A stretch of 29,308 nt of DNA from a virus: positions 1-29,308 of IMG/VR virus record IMGVR_UViG_3300025671_000358; one strand, 5' to 3'. Under the pieces are notes generated by a model, which made no database searches, was not told the DNA's origin, and saw only the letters and a program-made list of their open reading frames with translations. Below are positions 16,192 to 27,832 of the stretch, one piece after another. Position numbers and translations under genes: made by a program. Each line of letters begins with the position of its first letter. Within the stretch, counting starts at the first letter, position 1.

Positions 16192-16333
16192 AATGTTTTC
16201 CACATACAAAATAGTATGCTCCTTTATCGTTGATACCAAAACTACCATATTGATCGCAAATATAACACCTTCGGTACTTGATTTGTTCTTCGTGACTCCA
16301 GTTAAAGACTTGGTGACTATTATATCGTTTCAA
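16130..16333 (-). CDS. Small zinc-finger-like protein, TTG start (67 aa)
   Basis: The core 'RRCYICDQYGSFGINDKGAY' followed by 'YFVCGKHYEKK' gives a C-x2-C … C-x2-H pattern, a likely single zinc-binding knuckle. The rest is Lys/Glu/Asn-rich. The start is TTG at 16333, just after a GGGGG stretch that may serve as ribosome site; there is no ATG alternative. It is the first gene of the leftward late block next to the long regulatory gap, a place where small transcription-modifying proteins can occur, but its function is not known. Confidence 0.55.
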   Translation of the reverse strand: MKRYNSHQVFNWSHEEQIKYRRCYICDQYGSFGINDKGAYYFVCGKHYEKKETSKENRKEENNFELF

Positions 16334-17036
16334 AATACCCCCAAAAATCCATTTTAAAGACCATACAGCTATATCTTACCAAAATCCGTAGAGAATTACT
16401 ACCCCCCTATTTTAGAACCCTTTATTATTTTGGGAAACCAAAAGCCGTAGAGAGTTGGTTTTGTGTTGAATTGGGATGTATATATATAAATATTTGTGGC
16501 GTGGGGGTGCTCTAGTTCTCTAAAATACTCAAATATATGGCTATATTAGTTATATAGCGGTAGGGTAGGGGAGATATTATATTGTTGCATAATATATCTT
16601 AGAAGAACTAGGCAAGATACCCCCCTACTATACTCTTAATTATTGTATATATAGGGCTATAAAAGGTTTTATTTCATTTCTTATATAGGTTTTATGTCTA
16701 AATTTGAGTTTTATATATAACCCTCAATAATATTAAGCAATATCAACCATTTTATCAGATACCTGGATTAAGATCTCAATCTATTTCTATCTATATCTCT
16801 ATTACTTCTCTATATGATTAATCTAATTGTATATTCTTTTATGGAGTAATTTGTAATATTTGGAATGGAACTAACAAAGACTATTTTGATAGTTCTTTCT
16901 ATATCTCTAATAAAAGATCTAGCCCCGCCAACAAGCTATTATTAATAGATAATTAGGTGCGACAGTTTGATACATTTTTTTATTTATTTTTTTTAAAAAT
17001 TATGGTTTAATCCTAATTGAAAGAGAGAAATAACAA
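16334..17036. promoter_or_regulatory. Gene-free divergent control region (~700 bp)
   Basis: No credible gene lies here. The region is very AT-rich with many TATATA-like stretches, so several promoters are possible on both strands, but I could not pick one with a good -35/-10 pair. It holds a 20-bp direct repeat (16378-16397 and 16437-16456), two copies of TACCCCCCTA (16400-16409 and 16618-16627), G-rich tracts near 16496-16507 and 16557-16572, a stem-loop GCTATAT/ATATAGC (16540-16546 with 16552-16558), and a distant inverted pair CTAGTTCT (16512) with AGAACTAG (16604). It separates the leftward late genes from the rightward small-gene block and is the best place for late promoters and their operators. 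Confidence 0.7.
16378..16456. repeat. Pair of 20-bp direct repeats, 59 bp apart
   Basis: The two copies are ACCAAAATCCGTAGAGAATT (16378-16397) and ACCAAAAGCCGTAGAGAGTT (16437-16456), identical at 18 of 20 positions. The distance is 59 bp, close to a whole number of helical turns plus a half. They lie on the terL side of the control region and are candidate binding sites for a phage transcription regulator. Confidence 0.65.
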
Positions 17037-20296: not shown

Positions 20297-20615
20297 AAGC
20301 AGATTTTACAGGATCAGTTTCAAAATAATCATCATTAAAATCTAGTTTGTTGATGTTATCGACAATATCCACCCATTCAGGTTGTAAATCTTCAGTACCA
20401 ATAAAACCTTCTTTAACTAATTGATATAAACAATTATAGTTCATTTTGGGTGATCTTCTAAATAAAGATTCCCCCCACTTAACAACCATGTGAGCAAGTC
20501 TATATTTGTGATTAGCAAGAGGTGAGAGATCATTTTCTAGCCAATATTCCTCACCATATTTTTCTTTCATTTCTTTGTAAGTGACCTTTGTTCTTTTCTT
20601 GGGTAAAATTACCAT
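20286..20615 (-). CDS. Hypothetical protein (109 aa)
   Basis: Soluble protein with a basic N-terminus ('PKKRTKVTYKEMKEKYGEEY'), a helical middle ('YRLAHMVVKWGESLFRRSPK') and an acidic C-terminus ('EWVDIVDNINKLDFNDDYFE'). It overlaps the end of the replication gene by 7 bases and starts the next by 11. As it is encoded right after the DUF1376-type protein it may help replication (for example helicase loading), but there is no sequence motif to show it. Confidence 0.5.
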   Translation of the reverse strand: MVILPKKRTKVTYKEMKEKYGEEYWLENDLSPLANHKYRLAHMVVKWGESLFRRSPKMNYNCLYQLVKEGFIGTEDLQPEWVDIVDNINKLDFNDDYFETDPVKSAYGI

Positions 20616-21364
20616 GCTTCTTTATACTCCCTTTCTTCTTGATTAGAACTTATCCTAAAAGTCTCGGCTCGTATATATCTTTCTAAGGCTTTGGCAAAAT
20701 TTCCATTTTCTTTGGCTTGTTCTATTTGATATCCCTTCCAATTTTTGCGGACTAATTCCTGATCTTCTTTACAAAGGGATTTGTACAATTTAAAAGAACT
20801 AGGTTTATTACTTCGAGTTCTATTCTCTATTGATAGGCTTTTCCATAAATCTTCAAAATCATCACTGTAATTTGTTATGGTACGTTGCTTTTTAATAACA
20901 CCATTCCCTTTATTGATATTATTATCTTTCTCATCCTCTGAAAGAGGATATATATTATTATTATATATAGATTTAGATATAGACTTAGATATAGATATAG
21001 AGGCTTCACTTTCGCTTAAGCGTTCGCTTCTAATTCGCTTAGCGTTCGCTTCCCCACCCTTTTTACCATTTAATTTATTGATTTCTGTTGTTTCTACTGC
21101 TCTAATATATTCTTCTCTTAGACGTTTTTGATAATATTGATCGTTTTCTTTAATCCAATAGAGTTTAATAATCTTTTCTATGGCCTCTTTATTGCCATTT
21201 CTTGTTAGACTGACTATAAAATCTATATCGTCAGGTATATATCCTTCCCTTGACCATGCAAAAAATATTAATCTAAAATAAATTCCTAATTCCTCGTCAC
21301 TAAGGAACGAAGTATCAGAATTAAATGCGTCTATCCATAAGTTCATTTTTGGCATCTTGCTCAT
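20609..21364 (-). CDS. DUF1376-type replication initiation protein (251 aa)
   Basis: The N-terminus 'MPKMNLWIDAFNSDTSFLSD' and 'EELGIYFRLIFFAWSREGYI', 'PDDIDFIVSL' matches the DUF1376/YdaU domain, a winged-helix-like module of phage replication initiators. The middle ('ANAKRIRSERLSESEASISI', 'SKSISKSIYNNN') is low-complexity and is encoded by DNA repeats that look like an origin. The C-terminal part ('DFEDLWKSLSIENRTRSNKP', 'SSFKLYKSLCKEDQELVRKN') is a helical domain as in other phage replisome organisers. Initiators commonly carry the origin within their own gene, as lambda O does. It overlaps its neighbours by 4 and 7 bases. Confidence 0.7.
   Translation of the reverse strand: MSKMPKMNLWIDAFNSDTSFLSDEELGIYFRLIFFAWSREGYIPDDIDFIVSLTRNGNKEAIEKIIKLYWIKENDQYYQKRLREEYIRAVETTEINKLNGKKGGEANAKRIRSERLSESEASISISKSISKSIYNNNIYPLSEDEKDNNINKGNGVIKKQRTITNYSDDFEDLWKSLSIENRTRSNKPSSFKLYKSLCKEDQELVRKNWKGYQIEQAKENGNFAKALERYIRAETFRISSNQEEREYKEAW
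20946..21052. other. Candidate replication origin: iteron-like repeats plus AT-rich tract
   Basis: Two near-identical elements, TTCGCTTAAGCGTTCGCTTC (21011-21030) and TTCGCTTAGCGTTCGCTTC (21034-21052), lie 3 bp apart. The first contains the palindrome CGCTTAAGCG. The elements differ by one base in length, so they are read in different frames and make different peptides, showing the repeat is kept as DNA. Directly beside them is a long tract (20946-21000) made of TAGATATAGA-like repeats and TATATTATTATTATATATA, with almost no G or C. A hairpin TCCTCT/AGAGGA (20934-20948) flanks it. Iterons next to an easily melted tract inside an initiator gene is the layout of the lambda origin. Confidence 0.6.
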
Positions 21365-26846: not shown

Positions 26847-27023
26847 ATGTTTAACATAACCAAAAGAGCAATGAATCACTTTTTGAATTTCTTTAACAAA
26901 CCTGATCCCGATGAAACTATCAAAGATTATTGTCAGGCAGAATACAAAAAAGATTGGTATGCAGCTTACATGACCTATAAAGAAGAAGGAAGATTCCCTA
27001 ACTTTATTAGAAGAACTCTCTAG
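26847..27023 (+). CDS. Hypothetical small protein (58 aa)
   Basis: I chose the ATG at 26847 because AAAGGA lies nine bases before it; the longer start at 26814 has no such site. The 58-residue protein ('FNITKRAMNHFLNFFNKPDP', 'KDYCQAEYKKDWYAAYMTYK', 'EEGRFPNFIRRTL') is helical and aromatic. The 'EYKKDWYAAYMTYKEEGRFP' segment is reminiscent of small inhibitor-like phage proteins, but no function can be assigned. It converges with the leftward ParB-like gene, overlapping by 4 bases. Confidence 0.55.
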   Translation: MFNITKRAMNHFLNFFNKPDPDETIKDYCQAEYKKDWYAAYMTYKEEGRFPNFIRRTL

Positions 27024-27319
27024 CCTTTTAAGGCTTCCCCAACGATTCTAGCTTCGATGACATCTTTGCAAACAAAAGCACTGATTGTCTCGTAGCCTAG
27101 ACTCTGGGCAGCAATACATCGATTGTTGCCAATCTCGACTATATTATTAAAGACTGTAATCGGATGTTGTAATCCGTTTTGTTTGATGTCCTCTTCTAAA
27201 TCTAAGGGATGAGTAGGGGGAGTTATTTTTAAATCTTTTAAAGGGAGTTGTTTGACGTTGAATTGTTTACCCTCATACCAATAATTAATCATGGTGGACA
27301 AAAGATGATTACGAAACAT
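27020..27319 (-). CDS. Small stand-alone ParB-like domain protein, copy 2
   Basis: The 99-residue protein has 'LEEDIKQNGLQHPITVFNNI' and 'VEIGNNRCIAAQSLGYETIS', the core of the ParB/Srx N-terminal domain (L..sI...G...Pi.v…..…v..G..R..AA..LG…..v). Free-standing domains of this sort occur in phages and can be CTP-binding or nuclease-like; no helix-turn-helix part of true ParB is present. The neighbour upstream is a related domain. It ends at the converging gene; function unproven. Confidence 0.65.
   Translation of the reverse strand: MFRNHLLSTMINYWYEGKQFNVKQLPLKDLKITPPTHPLDLEEDIKQNGLQHPITVFNNIVEIGNNRCIAAQSLGYETISAFVCKDVIEARIVGEALKG
27022..27035. terminator. Short hairpin at convergent gene ends
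   Basis: AGCCT, loop TTTA, AGGCT lies exactly where the rightward 58-residue gene and the leftward ParB-like gene end. Five pairs only, so it is at most a weak bidirectional stop. Confidence 0.3.
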
Positions 27320-27629
27320 TTATTCCTTGAAAGTCATCATAGTCTCTGAGTTCTTTTCCGATTCTATTTGCATCATCAAAGTCTTGAGCGACTATACAAT
27401 CTATATCTGTAGCACCTAGCTCTAAGAGAGCTAGATATCTATTGCGACCTACCTGTATTCGATATGCACCTGGCACTGCTTGGTAAACCACCAACGGGTT
27501 TTGTAGGCCTCTTTCTATTATATCATTCTTCATTCCTTGTAGAGGAGAACTAGGATAGTCATCCATATACAAGTGACAAGATTTGATTAATTGAGGATTG
27601 TGTTTTCTGTTAATTGATTGGAAGATCAT
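27309..27629 (-). CDS. Small stand-alone ParB-like domain protein, copy 1
   Basis: From ATG 27629 (106 residues; ATGA overlap with the upstream gene) the protein has 'HLYMDDYPSSPLQGMKNDII', 'ERGLQNPLVVYQAVPGAYRI' and 'QVGRNRYLALLELGATDIDC'. The ERGLQNPLVV … GRNRYLALLELG run corresponds to the ParB/Srx core, where R in the GxNR element contacts the nucleotide. A TTG at 27662 would add 11 residues without support. It overlaps the second ParB-like gene by 11 bases, so the two are made together, perhaps as partners. Confidence 0.65.
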   Translation of the reverse strand: MIFQSINRKHNPQLIKSCHLYMDDYPSSPLQGMKNDIIERGLQNPLVVYQAVPGAYRIQVGRNRYLALLELGATDIDCIVAQDFDDANRIGKELRDYDDFQGINVS

Positions 27630-27832
27630 AAGACATCTTCTAATAATCCAGCTTGGACACAAGTAAACTTTAGTTCCGTATCTTTTAAATCAGATAAATC
27701 AGATCTCGCTAATTGATAATATTCATTACATTCTTGATAAGTATCAAAGATAACCTCTGAACCCATGCGAACACATTGTTTGTCGAGTCCTGTACCGATA
27801 CATACCCAACCCACTAAAAAGAATTTAAGCAT
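27626..27832 (-). CDS. Small protein with hydrophobic N-terminus (68 aa)
   Basis: Starts MLKFFLVGWVCIGTGLDKQC, a short hydrophobic start that could be a signal or membrane anchor, then 'VRMGSEVIFDTYQECNEYYQ' and 'LKDTELKFTCVQAGLLEDV'. Four cysteines (11, 20, 35, 58) could pair if exported. Such small secreted-like proteins are common in marine phage genomes but unexplained; a role in superinfection exclusion or lysis is only a possibility. Confidence 0.55.
   Translation of the reverse strand: MLKFFLVGWVCIGTGLDKQCVRMGSEVIFDTYQECNEYYQLARSDLSDLKDTELKFTCVQAGLLEDVL

Follow-up and report, generated by a model that had tools for sequence, protein, structure and literature searches.

The window analyzed here, a viral record of 29,308 bp classed as linear, contains within one DUF1376 gene a cluster of short direct repeats beside an AT-rich tract, and this arrangement raises the question of what the repeats are for. 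A sequence-only reading of the same DNA had taken them for an origin of the λ kind. Very probably the stretch is a λ-like origin at which the phage starts replication, made up of iterons and an unwinding element, which lies within the initiator gene and would be bound by the product of that gene. Comparisons between phages show that phased 11-bp repeats, a fixed junction, and an easily melted 6-bp array, lying in codons for a predicted disordered linker, are kept at the DNA level and that selection acts on the DNA; we infer that the iterons are bound, that the tract unwinds, and that the origin fires.

Repeat arrays and the gene that carries them

The elements of the locus are as follows.

20609–21364, minus strand: DUF1376 winged-helix initiator-type gene, 251 amino acids (Pfam, PHROGs, AlphaFold2)
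21053–21089, minus strand: codons for the last residues of the long helix, among them NGKKGG, which may belong to the determinant of iteron specificity (covariation of the motif with iteron class)
21041–21051, minus strand: iteron 1, AAGCGAACGCT (sequence)
21030–21040, minus strand: iteron 2, AAGCGAATTAG (sequence)
21019–21029, minus strand: iteron 3, AAGCGAACGCT, the same as iteron 1 (sequence)
21007–21017, minus strand: iteron 4, AAGCGAAAGTG, 12 bp from iteron 3 (sequence)
21002–21006, minus strand: half iteron AAGCC adjoining the hexamer array, where most other phages have ATGC[CT] (sequence)
20966–21001, minus strand: second array, six TCTATA / TCTAAG / TCTAAA hexamers (TRF, codon use)
20947–21001, unstranded: putative DNA unwinding element, the hexamers plus TATTATTATTATATATA (nearest-neighbor scan)

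Read along the coding strand from 21052 downward, the order is G AAGCGAACGCT AAGCGAATTAG AAGCGAACGCT T AAGCGAAAGTG AAGCC, and the hexamers follow as TCTATA TCTATA TCTAAG TCTATA TCTAAA TCTATA, ending in the AT run TATAATAATAATATATATCC. The window thus has iterons of the class AAGCGAANNNN, in four 11-bp copies at 21007–21051 and a half copy. The sequence-only reading was right about the place of the repeat elements (20934–21052), which is supported by the sequence and by TRF, but each of its elements of 20 and 19 bp takes in two repeats, and the true repeat unit measures 11 bp, close to one turn of the helix, instead of about 20 bp. The three top TRF scores of the whole window fall on 21003–21052 (period 22, score 70) and 20961–21001 (61 and 53), the next best elsewhere in the 29.3 kb being 49 and 48, and four of the six occurrences of AAGCGAA in the window lie inside the array, spaced 11, 11, and 12 bp. 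Since 11 bp do not make up a whole number of codons, neighboring iterons fall in different reading frames; as had been noticed, the repeat is translated first as EANAKR and then as RSERLSES. All Ser codons of the tract in the window are TCT and all Ile codons ATA. Shuffling of codons with the protein kept constant gives modest support when applied to the window gene alone (lag 11, P = 0.02; lag 20, P = 0.0035), and, on the sequences compared, it is the comparative evidence rather than the window by itself that puts the repeat far beyond chance.

The proposal of an AT-rich tract beside the repeats is borne out by nearest-neighbor free energies, in which 20947–21001, though coding, ranks first of 29,253 55-bp windows for low duplex stability; a 40-bp scan agrees. 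The window's least stable stretches also include the divergent, AT-rich intergenic region at 16249–17036 with scattered TCTATATCT, which was rejected as an origin candidate since it is without iterons. The sign of the GC skew flips at ∼21.5 kb, where gene orientation diverges, and an argument for the origin purely from skew was discarded as confounded by divergent transcription at this point.

The protein encoded by the gene matches the Pfam profile PF07120 (DUF1376) with E = 3.4e-10 and 40.6 bits, against a curated cut-off of 30.1, and PHROGs labeled “primosomal protein”; Pfam and PHROGs gave no family beyond these, and homology to λ O was not found. An AlphaFold2 model built from a 41-row alignment has a confident winged-helix (wHTH) domain at residues ∼1–79, a long helix at 80–116, a disordered linker at 121–161 (pLDDT <50), and a helical C terminus. 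The iterons encode residues 105–121, which span the last part of the long helix and the first part of the linker, and the hexamers encode the linker. Foldseek matches to this model in the PDB are mostly winged-helix DNA-binding proteins, all weak (E ∼0.5 or worse), with no known initiator among them. Pfam and PHROGs recognize no DnaB or DnaC in the genes flanking the DUF1376 gene of the window; in six isolated phages with a DUF1376 or Lin1244 gene, that gene is followed by one for a DnaB helicase or a loader of the DnaC/IstB type, an order resembling that of O and P in λ. Elsewhere in the window, two neighboring small ORFs of ∼100 and 117 amino acids (27020–27662) are ParB-like by eye.

Recurrence of the two-part layout in other phages

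The two-part layout recurs in initiator-type genes of hundreds of other phages, several of them filed as being of unknown function. IMG/VR was scanned by DNA pattern, without protein information, for three classes of 11-bp iteron, each in three copies. For GCGANCGCANN there are at least 120 matches; among the matches listed, 91 of 120 fall in ORFs encoding a DUF1376-type domain, almost always no more than ∼12 residues from where the domain ends, and the cluster representatives comprise DUF1376 (32/52) and Lin1244_N (8/52), together 40/52. In prokaryotic genomes totaling 257 Gb, the same pattern is matched only 22 times, mostly in GC-rich or microsatellite contexts, with about five in initiator-like prophage genes. 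For GTTNAACGNCN, 86 of 111 matches are in ORFs with a DUF1376-type domain, and 39 of 42 representatives are DUF1376 (34) or Lin1244_N (5). The 25 representatives of AAGCGAANNNN, the type found in the window, include 13 DUF6291, three DUF1376, one Lin1244_N, and one Phage_rep_org_N. Control scans with a 12-bp spacing or with the reversed sequence gave eight and two matches, respectively, some of them in initiator-like genes. Both reversed-control loci (L538 and L539) lie in initiator-like genes with another repeat class, RNGSETEVKRKRHASDTQ. A further family, CCATTGCGACCGGATGCGACCGCAGTGCGACCG, fits the iteron pattern outside initiator genes (L038, L045, L056, L064, L078, L088, L096, L101, L103, and L105).

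The iterons of these phages are accompanied on one side by a second array. Tandem units of 5, 6, or 7 bp lie 3′ of the iterons in 18/52 (among the matches listed), 17/43, and 16/36 cases across the three classes, as compared with 1, 0, and 3 when the same test is applied 5′ of the iterons and with ∼1% in random DNA. The unit varies by phage (AACCAAT, CCCAAT, AAAGG, GAAGA, ATAAGG, and TCTATA are examples), and the junction between iterons and array is mostly ATGC[CT] in class A phages. Some second arrays are not AT-rich, and since that of one phage (L037) is the GC-rich CTCCG, melting alone does not fully explain them; we think, from these sequences, that the second array does more than melt passively. 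DUF6291 genes such as L428, L436, and L450, whose Pfam function is unknown, have phased AAGCGAA iterons and ATAAGG hexamers, and their products are therefore predicted to be replication initiators.

Periodicity was also found in a sample of 30 DUF1376 genes that were chosen by protein alone, from bacterial genomes of one phylum and isolated phages. With 0.3 genes expected per lag at P ≤ 0.01, codon shuffling that keeps the protein gave 8/30 at lag 11 and 6/30 at lag 22, and 12/30 and 7/30 at lags 7 and 14; the domain and C-terminal parts of the genes were near flat. The 11/22-bp periodicity is significant in 13 of the 30 genes, the others including some with different repeats and some with none detectable. 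When applied to λ O as a positive control, the shuffle returned lags 20, 23, and 24, which fit the annotated iteron starts, and nothing at lag 11.

The recurrence of the layout bears on the possibility that the repeats are operators at which the DUF1376 protein or another regulator controls transcription, with replication beginning elsewhere. Phased direct repeats can serve in this way, and iteron-like pairs are also present in the wHTH-coding part of the genes L170 and L173, but a mid-gene site that always has a second tandem array on its 3′ side would be an odd operator, and the genes in which it lies are of initiator type and often precede a gene for a helicase or loader; this explanation is very unlikely. 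Iteron-like repeats within the wHTH-coding part of the DUF1376 gene are seen in L170 (∼1057–1090), L173, and L054 (RMRTHCDCIA / RMRTHCERIA) and may possibly form a second binding cluster.

Iteron class, peptide motif, and conservation in relatives

If the site is an origin, the question arises of which protein binds it. In a table of motif against iteron built on 70% greedy clusters (single-linkage clusters had mixed classes), SAxxR[WY] accompanies ATGCGAACGCA in 41 of 42 representatives having a motif, among the matches listed; GxxSAxxR accompanies GTTCAACGACC in 36/43, and NG[SK] accompanies AAGCGAANNNN in 20/20. In most of the eight exceptions, NG is located after a genuine first motif. This pairing of the iterons with the peptide just before the array is common to several Pfam families, relatedness being not fully removed from the comparison. 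It is also seen within the family of the window, where the first 95 residues are 77–87% identical: NG[KR]KGG occurs with AAGCGAA in the window and L002, and KSAxxRW occurs with ATGCGAACGCA-type iterons in L003, L004, and L006–L009. The motif and the iteron type switch jointly, with the TCTATA array unchanged, and this joint exchange favors the initiator as the binder. Were the repeats recognized by some host factor or by a different phage protein, and the DUF1376 protein a loader only, the presence of one iteron class with different Pfam domains could be accounted for, but each of several iteron classes pairs with a particular motif where the initiator domain ends, so that the initiator itself is indicated as the binder and a separate binding protein is very unlikely. 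It is probable, on somewhat less secure grounds than those for the locus itself, that these phages represent an undescribed and very widespread origin superfamily, in which winged-helix initiators (DUF1376, Lin1244_N/DUF4373, DUF6291, and perhaps Phage_rep_org_N) have 11-bp helically phased iterons and a one-sided 5–7-bp unwinding array in their own disordered linker, and an exchangeable motif (SAxxRW, GxxSAxxR, or NGxK) tracks the iteron class across families as a protein-DNA specificity code.

Relatives of the window gene (24 from IMG/VR, with codon and spacing counts made on 13 dereplicated lineages) have three 11-bp units of related sequence, except for L002 and L001, the latter without the iteron part. 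The units are GTGCGAACGCA, TAGCGAACGCA, and ATGCGAACGCA itself in L003, where ATGCGAACGCA comes first, and ATGCGACCGCA, GAGCGACCGCA, and GTCCGATCGCA, in that order, in L010. The distance from the last iteron core to TCTATATCTA is 14 nt in all 13 lineages, and the GCA that ends the iteron is retained in 30/30 units, across three reading frames. Concerted evolution of the three iterons within one phage was not significant (P = 0.07, relatedness not removed).

The DUF1376 gene of the window (20609–21364) and that of L002 (1628–2395) have identical iteron DNA and have the first hexamers and most of the hexamer tract in common, followed by unrelated C-terminal domains, which on sequence comparison is a domain exchange at the origin. 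These two genes are what might be expected if the conserved DNA at the domain boundary were a recombination hot spot that promotes exchange of C-terminal domains instead of replication; this explanation, however, accounts for neither the fixed 11-bp spacing, the polarity of the second array, nor the match between iteron class and motif, and at an origin such exchange would be incidental, so that a hot spot as such is highly improbable.

The relatives keep the 11-bp iterons and the TCTATA tract, and the iteron peptide varies (ANAVRTHSERN, ATAERPQSDRT, and AIAEPSQSDRT). This upholds the earlier view that the repetition is kept as DNA and not as protein, and it is the opposite of a peptide that is retained after loss of the DNA repeat. 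Across the 13 lineages, Ser in the tract is TCT in 73/74 codons, versus 18% outside the tract in the same gene, and Ile is ATA in 45/45, versus 35% elsewhere in the gene. Selection for a low-complexity linker peptide (SISISK, KRxxSE), with the DNA repeats being incidental or a microsatellite, is extremely improbable and low complexity of the protein was rejected as their cause on the frame and codon evidence, for although the linker is predicted to be disordered, Ser/Lys-rich linkers are common, and slippage generates tandem repeats, 11 bp is out of frame and the encoded peptide differs between copies, the choice of codons is fixed, and a 12-bp in-frame pattern is rare.

Proposed mechanism and relation to known origins

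For the origin inside the DUF1376 gene, the following sequence of events is proposed. The winged-helix domain and the basic end of the long helix (NGKKGG in the window) would bind the repeats along a single face of the DNA helix, and the bound iteron array would open the adjoining hexamer tract, perhaps through a grip on one strand of the repeats; a strand-specific hold of the initiator on the second array is possible. The C-terminal domain would then recruit the helicase or a helicase loader. Location of the site in a disordered linker would allow it to travel together with the protein that binds it in recombination.

The origins of λ (ori, in gene O) and of Stx phages fall within the initiator gene; they have direct repeats to which the initiator binds and, flanking these on one side, AT-rich DNA (PMC7466680). 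The locus in the window resembles λ ori in its repeats within the initiator gene, which are tandem, direct, and conserved as DNA, and in the AT-rich tract to one side of them, which ranks first in the window for low stability. The λ-like layout that had been claimed for the DUF1376 gene is present, and it recurs in unrelated initiator-type genes, but neither the repeat nor the initiator is like that of λ in sequence. λ has four annotated 18-bp iterons with starts 20–24 bp apart, whereas the window has an 11-bp unit at 11-bp spacing and a second array of 5–7-bp units, and the initiator belongs to the DUF1376 family and not to that of λ O. Because unit length, spacing, and initiator family differ, the locus is not a member of the λ O/ori-λ family proper, though it would work like the λ origin.

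The basal unwinding system of bacterial origins, made up of DnaA boxes and DnaA-trios, likewise places repeats that are bound as double strands beside a one-sided array of short units where the strands open; the phage arrays differ in being without DnaA boxes, in having 5–7-bp units that vary by phage, and in lying inside coding sequence. Gram-positive phages also have origins in rep genes (SPP1 gene 38 and rep of TP901-1/Tuc2009), and these share with the present locus the location of repeats within the initiator gene. Since one match of the window type (class W) is a Phage_rep_org_N protein, a link to these rep origins is hinted at.

A literature search that covered few subscription journals found nothing linking DUF1376 with “origin of replication,” nor the breadth over DUF1376, Lin1244_N, and DUF6291, the helical-turn spacing, or the motif association; in the portions of text available from papers naming DUF1376, DUF4373, DUF6291, or Lin1244, none was about origins. 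If the present reading is true, large phage families of unknown function would gain one, as origin-carrying replication initiators, the sequences of thousands of uncultured phages would reveal their origins directly, and a candidate code would link a short peptide motif to iteron sequence.

The Rac prophage of Escherichia coli has an origin, oriJ, which is active but normally kept repressed (PMC3945230) and for which no coordinates that would place it on ydaU were found in the open literature. Its YdaU is a DUF1376 protein and is followed by the putative ATP-binding protein YdaV. A search with the Rac domain returned near-identical Rac prophages only. The iterons of Rac differ from those of the window in sequence and are less regularly spaced, lag 11 being not significant in the near-identical 683R6 gene, but the ydaU linker has the same two parts, TGTTCAAACA-type repeats and then ATAAAG-type hexamers.
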